From a virus: 33,633 nt of DNA. The stretch lies in the IMG/VR virus record IMGVR_UViG_3300027793_000194, positions 1 to 33,633 of that record; one strand, 5' to 3'. Shown here in pieces: positions 11,053 to 19,604 of the stretch. The first letter of the stretch is position 1. Each line of letters starts with the position of its first letter. Position numbers and translations under genes: made by a program. The notes under the pieces are model-generated. The model was not told the origin of the DNA and did not search any database. It worked only from the letters and a program-made list of their open reading frames with translations.

Positions 11053-11679
11053 ATGAAAATCATTGCATCAAACACGGGTGGTACTACCTACGAACCAGTA
11101 CCTGCCGCAACTTACATCGCACGCTGCTTCTCGATGGTACACATCGGGACGGTGATGGAAACATTTCAAGGCGAATCGAAACTTCAGAACAAGGTGCGCC
11201 TAACTTGGGAGTTGCCTCTTGAATTGAAGGTGTTCAACGAGGAGCGCGGTGAGCAGCCTTACACGCTCGGTAAGGAGTTCACATTGTCGCTCAATGAGAA
11301 AGCTACGCTGCGGAAATTCCTTGAAAGCTGGAGAGGCAAAGCATTCACCGAAGATGAGGCGAAATCATTCGACATATCGGTGCTGCTCGGCAAGCCTTGT
11401 ATGCTGAATGTGATTCACAAGGTCAGTCAGAAGAACGGCAAGACCTACGCGGAGATCGCATCAGTAAGTCCGATGATGAAGGGAATGAATTGCCCTGACC
11501 AAATCAGCGACACATTCATCTTCGGCTACGATCCGTACGAGCAATGGCGATTCGATTCATTGCCTGACTATTTGAAGGATAAGGTGCGCGGATCAATCGA
11601 ATATCAGGCAGCTATGTCACCGCAACACACGCAGGCATTGCCAGCGGTTGAGGAAGCGGCAGAGGACCTTCCATTCTAA
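11053..11679 (+). CDS. SSB-like single-stranded DNA-binding phage protein
   Basis: This 208-residue protein has a beta-rich core (VRLTWELPLELKVF; FTLSLNEKATLRKFLESWRG; LLGKPCMLNVIHKV) found in phage replication operons. It ends in an acidic tip, EEAAEDLPF, like the C-terminal tip by which bacterial SSB recruits repair and replication proteins. I therefore read it as the phage single-stranded DNA-binding protein. The core does not show a textbook SSB sequence, so the call rests on the acidic tip and the position at the head of the replication genes. Confidence 0.6.
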   Translation: MKIIASNTGGTTYEPVPAATYIARCFSMVHIGTVMETFQGESKLQNKVRLTWELPLELKVFNEERGEQPYTLGKEFTLSLNEKATLRKFLESWRGKAFTEDEAKSFDISVLLGKPCMLNVIHKVSQKNGKTYAEIASVSPMMKGMNCPDQISDTFIFGYDPYEQWRFDSLPDYLKDKVRGSIEYQAAMSPQHTQALPAVEEAAEDLPF

Positions 11680-13538: not shown

Positions 13539-13546
13539 TATGTTTG
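13539..13546 (+). promoter_or_regulatory. -7-like box TATGTTTG ahead of the pseudoknot RNA
   Basis: TATGTTTG matches TAnnTTTG. The expected transcription start, about 5-7 bases downstream, coincides with the first base of the first helix at 13551. No TTG is found at the expected upstream distance, so this is a partial promoter. Confidence 0.45.
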
Positions 13547-13550
13547 CATC

Positions 13551-13651
13551 GACTACCCGTATGAAAAGAAATAATCACGCCTCCAGTCGCATTGCCGTAT
13601 ATCCCTATCGGGAGCGGGTAGTCCTTTGCGTACTGGAGGCTTCAATTTTTT
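13551..13651 (+). ncRNA. Candidate pseudoknotted small RNA or leader element
   Basis: Two long perfect complementarities interleave. GACTACCCG (13551-13559) pairs with CGGGTAGTC (13615-13623). GCCTCCAGTCGC (13579-13590) pairs with GCG-T-ACTGGAGGC (13628-13640), 12 pairs around one bulged T. Since the order is 1a-2a-1b-2b, both helices can form only as an H-type pseudoknot, with loops of 19, 24 and 4 bases. Helix 2 is followed by TTCAATTTTTT, as in an intrinsic terminator. The ATG of the next gene lies 6 bases beyond the T-run, so it may instead be a cis-acting leader. I cannot match it to a known RNA class. Confidence 0.6.
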
Positions 13652-13656
13652 AAGCC

Positions 13657-13863
13657 ATGACAATTACATTGACTTTTGAGCCACGGCTTCACGACAACTT
13701 GAAGTTTGAAGTTAATCCTGAAAACTCTCGCGTGTGGATTACTCAAGAAAACGAGGATTTGAACGATCCTTATTACGCTGAATGCACGATTGAGGATTTG
13801 GAAAAACTTTGCAATGACCTGAATCGCATGATTGAAGTTTCAAAATCTTTGCAAAATGGCTAA
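13657..13863 (+). CDS. Small acidic hypothetical protein
   Basis: This 68-residue acidic protein (NPENSRVWITQENEDLNDPY, then IEDLEKLCNDLNRMIEV) is not recognised. It appears to be beta-alpha, with a C-terminal amphipathic helix. Its ATG is 6 bases after the T-run of the candidate RNA, which makes it the gene most likely controlled by that element. It overlaps the next gene by 8 bases. Confidence 0.6.
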   Translation: MTITLTFEPRLHDNLKFEVNPENSRVWITQENEDLNDPYYAECTIEDLEKLCNDLNRMIEVSKSLQNG

Positions 13864-14572
13864 AGACCCCGCGTTCCTTTTTTATCCGGGCGATTACCTG
13901 CGGGACACTCAATGCCTGTCACCCGCCGCTCAGGTTGCTTACGACCGTATCATGTGTGAACATATGAGAAACATATGTATTTCACACGCGCAACTCAAAT
14001 TCTTCACGAAACGGCTGACGGATGACGAGCGCGAGGAAGTAATGGCAGTTTTGAAAGAGGTTGACGGCTGTTTTCAAATTGAATGGGTGGCCGAAAGTAT
14101 CTGTAAAAGAAAGGATTACAGCGAATCAAGACGCAAAAATCGTAGTGCTAAATCGAAATTACATATGTCACACATATCATCTACATATGTTGAACATATG
14201 GAAAATGAAAATGAAAATGAAAATGAAAATAAAGATGTAAGTGAAAAAGGAATTGCGTTGATTGAAAAAAAAGAAACTGCCATCGCTCCGCGAAATGTGC
14301 CGCACGATGAATTTGACGCATACTTCACCGAATTGGGTTATCCACAAGAGGCAGACAAGTTCATCGACTACTACTCATCCAATGGCTGGAAGGTGGGGCG
14401 CAATGCAATGAAGGATTGGAAAGCAACTGCGCGCAGATGGGTGCGGAGGAATCACGATGTGCAAGCTGACAAACGCCTTGTCCGCGACACGAAGATGAGT
14501 GACGCGCAGCGCAACATTGATAACTTTGTTGAACTAATGAATCAAACCAAAACGAATGACACACACGATTGA
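13856..14572 (+). CDS. Replication protein, DUF1376-like N-terminus with helicase-loader-like C-terminus
   Basis: This 238-residue protein starts at ATG 13856. The N-terminal part (DPAFLFYPGDYLRDTQCLSP followed by AAQVAYDRIM) matches the DUF1376/YdaU type of phage replication proteins. A middle low-complexity linker (residues about 95-140, with an Asn-Glu repeat) leads to a C-terminal part (ADKFIDYYSSNGWKVGRNAM followed by KDWKATARRWVRRN) of the kind seen at the ends of phage initiators and helicase loaders. As in lambda O, the linker-coding DNA carries repeats (ACATATG) that might be the origin. A consensus DnaA box lies at 14338-14346. Confidence 0.75.
   Translation: MAKDPAFLFYPGDYLRDTQCLSPAAQVAYDRIMCEHMRNICISHAQLKFFTKRLTDDEREEVMAVLKEVDGCFQIEWVAESICKRKDYSESRRKNRSAKSKLHMSHISSTYVEHMENENENENENKDVSEKGIALIEKKETAIAPRNVPHDEFDAYFTELGYPQEADKFIDYYSSNGWKVGRNAMKDWKATARRWVRRNHDVQADKRLVRDTKMSDAQRNIDNFVELMNQTKTNDTHD
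13954..14100 (+). repeat. ACATATG repeats, first group (with 14161-14200), possible origin
   Basis: Inside the replication gene, CATATG at 13961 and ACATATGT at 13971 are enclosed by inverted GTGTGAA (13954-13960) and TTCACAC (13981-13987). Further copies are ACATATGT at 14161-14168 and 14083 bases apart from no other cluster in the window: 14183-14190 and ACATATG at 14194-14200. Such spaced palindromes within an initiator gene are typical of phage origins. The listed interval covers the first group only; the region 13988-14100 has no copies. Confidence 0.4.
14161..14200 (+). repeat. ACATATG repeats, second group, possible origin iterons
   Basis: ACATATGT at 14161-14168 and 14183-14190, ACATATC at 14172-14178 and ACATATG at 14194-14200 give four near-copies in 40 bases, spaced 11 bases apart (starts 14161, 14172, 14183, 14194). 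The regular 11-base period places all copies on one helix face, as expected for iterons bound by an initiator. Confidence 0.55.
14201..14230 (+). repeat. Five tandem GAAAAT hexamers
   Basis: GAAAAT occurs five times in a row and encodes alternating Glu and Asn in the linker of the replication protein. The AT-rich stretch directly follows the ACATATG iterons, so it may also serve as a DNA-unwinding region. Confidence 0.85.
14338..14346 (+). promoter_or_regulatory. Consensus DnaA box TTATCCACA
   Basis: This is a perfect nine-base match to the DnaA box, in the replication gene about 140 bases after the iteron cluster. Other perfect copies are at 20263-20271 (in terL) and, inverted, 30717-30725. 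A single copy here is suggestive only. Confidence 0.4.
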
Positions 14573-17665: not shown

Positions 17666-18195
17666 ACCTGACACACCCGAAAGAATTTTACAAAAATTAC
17701 GTTGCCGACAATCACATCGACGACATTGATCGCGTGTTAATTTCTGAGATCATCAAATTTGAACCAGCGTCCGTCTTTGAGTTTGGCTGCGGATCGGGGA
17801 AGAATTTGAAGATGATAGAGGCCGTAATGCAGAAAAGGATCGAAACCTGCGGGCAGGATATTTCAATACTAAACTGCATTCAATCGCACTTGGCTGGAGT
17901 GGATAGCGTGATATGTGGGGATGAACGGCATCTTCCAATCAGGCCGTTTGATGTGGTGTTTACTTGCTCTGTATTGGATCACATCCCACACGAAAACATT
18001 GATGCGCTGGTTGACGGTCTGAAGACTATGGCGCGTAAAGCCGTGATCGTCTGTGAAACCAATAGCTTTAATGAGAACTTTTATTATCGGCATGACTACC
18101 AATCAATGGGGTTTGCGCAGGTTGGGGCGGATATGGTAAGCAATGGTGACGGGGGCATTTACCAAATCTTTGTTTTCCAATGTGCGGAATTATAG
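17662..18195 (+). CDS. SAM-dependent methyltransferase, class I
   Basis: This 177-residue protein shows SAM-binding motif I VFEFGCGSGKN (38-48), an acidic residue after strand 2 (CGQDIS, Asp66), a GDERHLPIRPFDVVF segment like motifs II-III, and VLDHIP in the place of motif IV. There is no DNA methyltransferase signature such as DPPY. With its neighbours it most likely methylates a sugar or other small acceptor in glycan assembly. It overlaps the next gene by 16 bases. Confidence 0.8.
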   Translation: MNLTHPKEFYKNYVADNHIDDIDRVLISEIIKFEPASVFEFGCGSGKNLKMIEAVMQKRIETCGQDISILNCIQSHLAGVDSVICGDERHLPIRPFDVVFTCSVLDHIPHENIDALVDGLKTMARKAVIVCETNSFNENFYYRHDYQSMGFAQVGADMVSNGDGGIYQIFVFQCAEL

Positions 18196-19604
18196 CATTC
18201 ATCCCACGAGACACTACGGCACGTTACGATATGGATCGTGGCTTAGATGCTATGGCGCACAGGGGATCAGATGAGAGGATCATCAAATTCTACGATCATT
18301 GCGTGATTGGTTACCTGAGAATGTCCGTCACCGATCAGGCCGCGCCAGCAGTCGGCAAGGCCAATGGACTTGATGTGTACCTGAATGGCGAGATTTACAA
18401 TTACAAGGAACTTGGCTACACAGGCAGCGAGACGGAAGTACTGGCAAAAGGATTCTTTGCCGAAGGCGACGCATTCGCTGAACGGCTTAACGGAATGTTT
18501 TCGATAATCGTGGTCAGCGATACAGAGGTTAAAACGTATTCAGATCGCTATGGTATTAAGCCTTTATACTTTGCCGACTTAGGTAATGGCGTGATCTGTT
18601 CATCTGAGATCAAGCCGATACTGAACTATGAAGGATTTGAAAGGCGCATTGATTTCAACCGCGTCAAGGAATGGATGACCGTTCAACACCCGCTTAGTCA
18701 GTCAATGATGCTTCACGGGATTTATGACTTGGCAAGAATAAACCGTAGCAGGGCTAAATGGCAATGGAAGTTTGAGCCGGATTATTCGATAACTTACGAA
18801 TTTGCCGTATCTGAGGTGCGTAGACTTCTGCTTCAGGCAATCAACAGGATGCGCGTCGATGAACCTTCTGGCGTGTGTTTATCGGGCGGCATTGATAGCG
18901 GGATACTTGCCGCGCATACAGGATCGGCGCATAGCTTTACGGTTGGATATGAGGGCACGGAGGACGAGCGACCAATGGCGCGTCTGATGGCGCGGGATCA
19001 TCATCACGAAATTGTGTACAATCGCGTTGAGCATTTGCCGGAGACGATCTTTTACCTTGAAGACCTTCGTGCGGGTGCATCGTGGCCAAATTACGGAATG
19101 TATCAGGAGGCAAAGAATTATGTTCGCATCTTGTTTGATGGAGCGGGCGCGGATGAATTATTTGCGGGTTATGAGTGGCGTTATCACAACACTGACTATT
19201 GGCAGGTAGTGAACAGGACGCGCGAGAACATTCCATCGGTGCAGCGTTATTATGAAGGTGGGAACTGGAACTTTGCGGATCGGTTTACATACGATGCTCA
19301 AAACTTTTTGCCGTCTGTTTTAATGGTCGGTGATAAGCTGAGTATGGCGCACACATTAGAGGTTCGCTATCCGTTCCTTGACAATGATCTTGTAGACTTC
19401 TGCTTAACGATTCCCTATGAGTTCAAAAAAAATAAACAGGTGCTAAAGGATGCATTTGCCTGTGATCTTCCATCCGAGATATTAAACGGTCCAAAGCGTG
19501 GATTTACCTCACCGGATTGGATTGCCGGAGAGGGTAATCAGGCACGCAAGTGGAGCGTTGAAGCATTCAAGACGTGGCGTAAAATCTTCACAAATGAGCA
19601 ATAG
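18180..19604 (+). CDS. AsnB-type glutamine-dependent amidotransferase
   Basis: This 474-residue protein has a glutaminase class II domain with the catalytic Cys2 directly after Met (MCGIIAF), which fixes the start, followed by HRGSDE (27-32), NGEIYNY (69-75) and GSETEV (82-87). The synthetase domain has the ATP pyrophosphatase loop SGGIDS (235-240) and FDGAGADELFAGYEWR. SMAHTLEVRYPFLD completes the family pattern. It is shorter than cellular AsnB (about 550 residues). Such proteins make asparagine, but those beside glycosyltransferases and acyltransferases often amidate uronic acids in surface polysaccharides, which I consider more likely here. Confidence 0.85.
   Translation: MCGIIAFIPRDTTARYDMDRGLDAMAHRGSDERIIKFYDHCVIGYLRMSVTDQAAPAVGKANGLDVYLNGEIYNYKELGYTGSETEVLAKGFFAEGDAFAERLNGMFSIIVVSDTEVKTYSDRYGIKPLYFADLGNGVICSSEIKPILNYEGFERRIDFNRVKEWMTVQHPLSQSMMLHGIYDLARINRSRAKWQWKFEPDYSITYEFAVSEVRRLLLQAINRMRVDEPSGVCLSGGIDSGILAAHTGSAHSFTVGYEGTEDERPMARLMARDHHHEIVYNRVEHLPETIFYLEDLRAGASWPNYGMYQEAKNYVRILFDGAGADELFAGYEWRYHNTDYWQVVNRTRENIPSVQRYYEGGNWNFADRFTYDAQNFLPSVLMVGDKLSMAHTLEVRYPFLDNDLVDFCLTIPYEFKKNKQVLKDAFACDLPSEILNGPKRGFTSPDWIAGEGNQARKWSVEAFKTWRKIFTNEQ

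Follow-up and report, generated by a model that had tools for sequence, protein, structure and literature searches.

The segment preceding the replication-initiator-like gene of the DNA stretch analysed here (the window; a virus record of 33,633 bases) encodes a pseudoknotted RNA, which is probably a not yet catalogued regulatory element of phages that infect Bacteroidota-type hosts. From the sequences compared, we interpret it with moderate confidence as a cis-acting 5′ leader that would set the translation, and perhaps the stability, of the phage replication operon. The letters of the element vary from phage to phage while its fold is kept, and this comparison makes the RNA class well supported. 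The positions of the predicted features are summarized in Table 1.

Table 1. Predicted features of the leader element and of the adjoining genes in the window
Feature	Position	Strand	Remarks
Predicted −7 promoter box TATGTTTG (Bacteroidota TAnnTTTG)	13539-13546	+	four bases before P1
P1 5′ strand (a), beginning at the predicted transcription start (+1, 13551)	13551-13559	+	
J1 joining loop, with conserved ATGAAAA motif at its start	13561-13578	+	alignment A3, CM alignment
P2 5′ strand (b), 9 + 4 pairs	13579-13591	+	
J2/3 joining loop, starting with conserved TTGCC	13592-13601	+	nearly invariant alignment columns
P3 hairpin TCCC-TATC-GGGA, 4 bp, between b and a′	13602-13613	+	
P1 3′ strand (a′)	13615-13623	+	
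Conserved P1-P2 linker, CTT in the family; TTT/CTT register 13623-13626	13624-13626	+	alignment
P2 3′ strand (b′), bulged T13631	13627-13640	+	
T-rich linker up to the start codon, T6 at 13646-13651	13641-13656	+	
Possible 30-codon upstream ORF	13561-13653	+	frame varies among relatives
First downstream gene, 68 aa, ATG at 13657	13657-13863	+	function unassigned
Replication-initiator-like gene, C-terminal domain phrog_15768/28809	13859-14572	+	constant partner of the RNA

Inspection of the window confirmed the central observation of an earlier note on this DNA, i.e. that two pairs of complementary segments follow each other in the order a-b-a′-b′, by which helices P1 and P2 interleave as a pseudoknot. 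P1 (GACTACCCG/CGGGTAGTC) comprises 9 pairs. P2 (GCCTCCAGT plus CGCA, opposite TGCG-(T13631)-ACTGGAGGC) contains the single bulge that had been described, but it comprises 13 pairs rather than 12, and the two-helix description, otherwise accurate, had overlooked the P3 hairpin. The box upstream of the first helix and the T6 run after the last one were found exactly where they had been placed. Calculated energies of the two hairpins, each taken alone, are −13.1 and −22.1 kcal/mol. In a descriptor scan of both strands of the window, the P1/P2 pseudoknot was the only match scoring at least 40, and in 667 kb of phage loci 17 matches scored at least 48, whereas two dinucleotide shuffles gave 1 and 0. 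The view that nothing coding explains the structure also stands: the 30-codon ORF is present, but the conserved CGCATTGCC block lies in another frame in relatives. The 68-aa product of the first downstream gene matched no family.

Relatives of the element were gathered by (i) reading the upstream regions of 80 loci obtained with the replication gene at 13859 as the query, (ii) a scan with a pseudoknot descriptor and (iii) two pattern scans of IMG/VR. Approximately 100 distinct members were identified in IMG/VR phage contigs (about 84 type-A members; 102 element-plus-flank combinations), and the phage origin proposed for the window was supported. From the 5′ end, the common layout consists of P1 (9-11 bp), a loop reading TATGAAAA...AAAT, P2a (about 11 bp), P2b (CGCA/TGCG) and TTGCC, followed by the P3 hairpin, P1′, CTT, P2b′, a bulged U, P2a′, a T-rich linker and the ATG.

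An alignment of 25 diverse members revealed compensatory changes in both helices, in agreement with the H-type-like pseudoknot suggested earlier. In this set 96.0% of the cells pair, both partners have changed in 22 of the 28 pairs, and the covariation score is 0.615, compared with 0.228 after shuffling and at most 0.14 when the partners are slid by 1-3 columns. P1 is paired in 100% of the cells, with double substitutions in 6 of 8 pairs and up to four pair types per position, while in P2 96% of the cells pair and 11 of 15 pairs have double substitutions. Pairing of P3 across the family reaches 89%, and each of its four pairs is doubly substituted. The type-A alignment contains 61 G-U cells versus 2 A-C cells, an asymmetry which indicates that the sense-strand RNA folds and is the selected strand. 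This asymmetry, together with the two copies seen in some phages, argues against a DNA-level element or origin, which was rejected. A covariance model (R1) built from P2 and P3 only gave the window 90 bits with the filters off (E 1.7e-16, the E-values of this model being rough).

The neighbouring 68-aa protein has 99%-identical counterparts in two contigs. Locus L003 was found by inspection to differ in the letters of its stems and to keep both helices intact (GCCACCAAG/CTTGGTGGC and ACCCCTACC-CGTTCCGC/GCGGAGCG-T-GGTGGGGGT), with the bulged T positioned as in the window. The upstream gene of L003 also differs; conservation of a neighbour therefore does not account for the RNA. Most of the 16 records searched over their whole length carry one copy. 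In some phages with two copies, one precedes a helicase gene and the other an initiator gene. Four loci (L344, L345, L362 and L371) contain two type-A copies approximately 2.4 kb apart per contig; on the contig shared by L345 and L094, one copy lies before an ORF of at least 500 aa resembling the helicase-methylase of L141 and the other before a DUF6291 initiator.

A search of Rfam (release 15, 4227 covariance models) gave no relevant match to the window at the gathering score, consistent with the earlier statement that the RNA belongs to no known class; at E-values up to 10 the element produced one meaningless match, on the other strand. Twenty loci with divergent forms yielded only a tRNA at the gathering score. 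A direct DNA search did not find type-A DNA in the INPHARED phages, and a pattern-based scan covering 84,980 genomes of bacteria and archaea recovered 22 stretches, none of which folds in this way, so no type-A prophage copies were found with that pattern. Loci L004 and L006 were rejected as chance pattern matches. Searches of open-licence papers found no description of the element, which constitutes weak evidence of novelty.

The upstream regions of 95 loci share the logo TTTG-N19-TAtnTTTG, with the box spanning −12 to −5 relative to the base at which P1 begins. The sigma-A TAnnTTTG box of F. psychrophilum occupies the same position relative to the start site (PMC9723704), which places the predicted +1 at the first base of P1; the proposal that transcription begins at the structure is therefore upheld, with 13551 as its first base. 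A −33 TTTG could not be recognised for the window's own promoter, either in the sequence or by a promoter-pattern scan of the window, and the strength of this copy's promoter is therefore uncertain. From the promoter type and one isolate, we infer that the hosts are of the Bacteroidota type.

Between the end of P2′ and the ATG that follows lie 9-13 nt in at least 88 of the 95 loci, 17-21 nt in the rest and 16 nt in the window. The genes located behind the leader encode (i) three alternative types of initiator, (ii) a 71-aa protein, (iii) a DUF4326 protein, (iv) GIY-YIG and HNH/AP2 endonucleases and (v) a 751-aa helicase-methylase. Such a fixed start-codon spacing before many unrelated genes points to an mRNA leader, not a free RNA, and the free-standing small RNA of the earlier note is not sustained. 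Among the options offered there, a leader provides the best fit, tied to the replication operon and not to the gene at 13657, while a decoy provides the poorest; nothing clearly indicates a metabolite riboswitch. As regards riboswitch features, the loops are conserved in type A and not in the divergent forms, and the targets are replication genes. In loci L106 (1570-1857), L167, L123 and L153, homing-endonuclease-type genes (GIY-YIG, HNH, AP2) are placed directly behind the leader RNA.

The initiators of the MKDPAFLF.. (window), MRESTVFY.. (DUF6291) and MKNNGYD.. types have different N-termini and a common C-terminal domain (phrog_15768/28809). When the MKNNGYD protein was used as the sole bait (many of the bait loci considered here overlap pattern-found contigs and some are near-duplicates, so that the counts do not represent independent events), the RNA was present upstream, on the same strand, in 72 of 79 loci; of the remainder, two cut through the RNA and five are contigs starting too near the gene. 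With the DUF6291 protein as bait, the covariance model identified the RNA in 43 of 80 loci, four of which contain it twice, and in most of the other, divergent loci a different pseudoknot lies roughly 95-140 nt upstream of the gene. The DUF6291 gene of L208 is followed by DnaB, and the helix-turn-helix initiator of L097 by a DnaB-like helicase; in Vibrio phages, related DUF4373 genes directly precede DnaB-like helicase genes. Comparison of L098, L111, L118 and the window (13859-14572) revealed N-terminal modules swapped behind the same leader RNA, i.e. a modular exchange point.

Pseudoknots of unrelated sequence were identified at the same place in divergent phages (e.g. L380, L385, L386, L396, L400, L403 and L406), with TAnnTTTG upstream and an ATG 5-23 nt past P2′. 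In 2.64 Mb, a descriptor combining promoter, pseudoknot and ATG gave 103 distinct matches scoring at least 40 (about one sixth of them of non-A sequence), versus 0.7 per shuffled set; some of the general-scan matches scoring below 40 are at chance level. Of 21 forms compared, 12 (3.3 expected) can form at least 4 bp between the last bases of the loop that precedes a′ and the first bases of the loop that follows it, which creates a long hairpin whose apical loop is paired with the 5′ end. Loci L042 and L044 have the same layout with promoters that appear sigma-70-like on inspection. A candidate in the isolate Polaribacter phage Danklef_1 (PMC8776804) has a promoter box, a T-run and a following ATG, with a score of 34.5 which alone is not above chance. 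No convincing pseudoknot was found in the 2 kb before the gene in Riemerella, Porphyromonas, Vibrio and other isolate relatives. No loop sequence is conserved among the non-homologous forms, so a single specific protein acting on all of them seems less likely. We tentatively suggest, at somewhat less than even probability, that all these leaders represent an RNA class defined by fold and not by sequence, which opens the replication operons of Bacteroidota-type phages (and perhaps of sigma-70 ones, as in L042 and L044). The 5′ end of the transcript would pair with the apical part of a hairpin beside the start codon, and a device metering the initiator would be kept despite fast sequence turnover, as a phage counterpart of plasmid copy-number leaders.

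In the mechanism that we propose, transcription would start on the first base of P1, which would close once a′ is made, and P2 would then close around the P3 hairpin. This would place a compact pseudoknot at the very 5′ terminus of the mRNA, and its folded body would end 16 nt (window) or 9-13 nt (most relatives) before the first AUG of the operon, at the edge of the ribosome landing site. The folded versus the unfolded or bound state would set the ease of 30S initiation and hence the amount of replication initiator. Control of translation initiation is favoured by the fixed AUG spacing before unrelated genes and by the product of the operon. The burial of the 5′ end in type A should slow decay, and the location of the predicted transcript start inside P1 makes such protection likely for this type. 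Any partner acting in trans could be a phage replication or ssDNA-binding protein, as for T4 gene 32, or a nascent leader peptide. The upstream ORF in J1, which is weakly constrained, may constitute an extra layer of control. In the non-homologous forms, P2 and the T-run resemble an intrinsic terminator, leaving room for an effect on transcription.

Two alternatives, both of which we consider unlikely, retain the leader and assign it another function. The pseudoknot might serve mainly to bury the first nucleotide, shielding a long replication mRNA from 5′-end-dependent decay without any regulation. This would agree with the position of the box, which makes +1 part of a base pair in almost all 95 type-A loci, with the freedom of the P1 sequence to vary while pairing holds, and with the single copy per genome in most records. 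However, a simple 5′ hairpin would suffice for this purpose, leaving the interleaved helices, the bulged U and the ATGAAAA, TTGCC and CTT loops as surplus and the fixed AUG spacing unneeded; moreover, 5-11 or more unpaired bases precede P1 in the non-homologous forms, whose ends would not be buried. The element might instead, with no better prospects, be an attenuator, in which P2 and the T-run terminate transcription within the leader, a:a′ pairing modulates this, and read-through leads into the replication operon. A T-run does follow P2′ in the window, 5 nt off the stem, runs of 5-7 T occur in many divergent relatives (L406, L410, L414), and C predominates in the 5′ strand of P2 (64 C versus 31 G in 21 forms), giving a G-rich 3′ strand. 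But the T tract, strong in many divergent forms, is weak in the large type-A group (TATTTAGTTTATG and similar), a long loop separates b from b′, and a:a′ and b:b′ are disjoint, both conserved and not mutually exclusive. The tight 9-13 nt to the AUG would also be left unexplained.

Two further readings appear very improbable. A free small RNA (antisense, immunity or decoy) ended at the T-run would account for the element having its own promoter, a compact fold and a T-run, but not for the constant distance to the start codon of many different genes; the element also lies on the same strand as, and upstream of, the replication operon, and its T-tract is weak in type A. Attenuation by a ribosome translating a leader peptide (MKNIxNPxxTALP) draws on the 18-nt distance from ATG to CCCA in 99 of 102 type-A members and on the stop codon before a′ in 87 of 102, although the ATG count is biased by a search pattern that demanded ATGAAAA. 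The window, L055, L206 and L207 have the conserved block in a different frame, and J1 lacks an ATG in several divergent forms; such a peptide could be an added layer and not the basis of the system, and it was rejected as the main feature because its frame is not conserved.

Among known systems, the gene 32 operator of phages T4 and RB69 is similar in being a pseudoknot in the 5′ leader of a phage replication gene, with an A/U-rich, unstructured segment between it and the start codon, and in retaining its structure while the sequence diverges between phages (PMC535899, PMC3014915). In T4, a GIY-YIG endonuclease gene (segG) lies beside the gene 32 pseudoknot (PMC535899, PMC3014915), as a GIY-YIG gene does behind the leader in L106. 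The T4 pseudoknot is about 28 nt long, located 67 nt upstream of the AUG and controlled by gp32, whereas the element described here is about 90 nt long, ends 9-16 nt from the AUG and starts at the predicted +1; the genes downstream of it encode replication initiators or other proteins and are not gene 32 homologs. No sequence relation, and no Rfam or covariance-model match, to the T4-type gene 32 operator was found. By analogy, this operator may be considered the nearest working analogue, followed by the plasmid repZ leaders. The repZ and repA leaders occur in enterobacterial plasmids, are under antisense-RNA control and use long-range loop-to-leader pairing, the pseudoknot being required for translation of the initiator. 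According to work cited in PMC10724649, IncI-alpha (ColIb-P9) repZ and IncL/M repA share with our element a pseudoknot beside the start of a replication-initiator gene and a possible leader ORF. Neither an antisense promoter (promoter-pattern scan of the window) nor a loop motif of the repZ/repA kind was identified. The STAXI motif of Rfam is also a pseudoknot and occurs close to genes whose products bind DNA, SSB among them (PMC2864571). It is tandem-repeated, whereas the element is single, placed at the transcript start and without an Rfam match at E-values up to 10. HDV-like ribozymes have the same strand order (P1-P2-P3-P1′-P2′) and form a nested double pseudoknot with a P1 of about 7 bp, P1.1 and a catalytic C in J4/2. 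This assignment was rejected, since on inspection of alignment A3 the element has a P1 of 9-11 bp, a CTT linker, no P4, no conserved C-A-A/catalytic C before P2′ and no Rfam match.

If our interpretation is correct, it would reveal a far more widespread leader pseudoknot of phages, tied to replication initiation. Phage gene control in Bacteroidota-type hosts is little known, and the host ribosomes of this group ignore Shine-Dalgarno sequences (PMC9976891). The isolated phage-host pair of Polaribacter phage Danklef_1, with its candidate divergent form, and the tractable relative Flavobacterium johnsoniae make the proposal testable.

Several other genes of these phages deserve mention. The gene at 11053-11679 of the window belongs to the NGO0469 phage replication-initiation family (NCBIfam NF046043, 212 bits), and its product has an SSB-like acidic C-terminus (EDLPF). 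A 77-aa protein with an SSB-like tail (GDLPF) is encoded in L130 (5485-5715) and its relatives, in the same operon in many type-A phages; it is a candidate RNA-binding partner. Between the replication module and the terminase gene (20111), the window contains a glutamine-hydrolysing asparagine-synthase-like gene (18180-19604; TIGR01536, below its cut-off), which adjoins glycosyltransferase- and acetyltransferase-like ORFs. It is possible that these genes constitute a surface- or sugar-modifying cassette.
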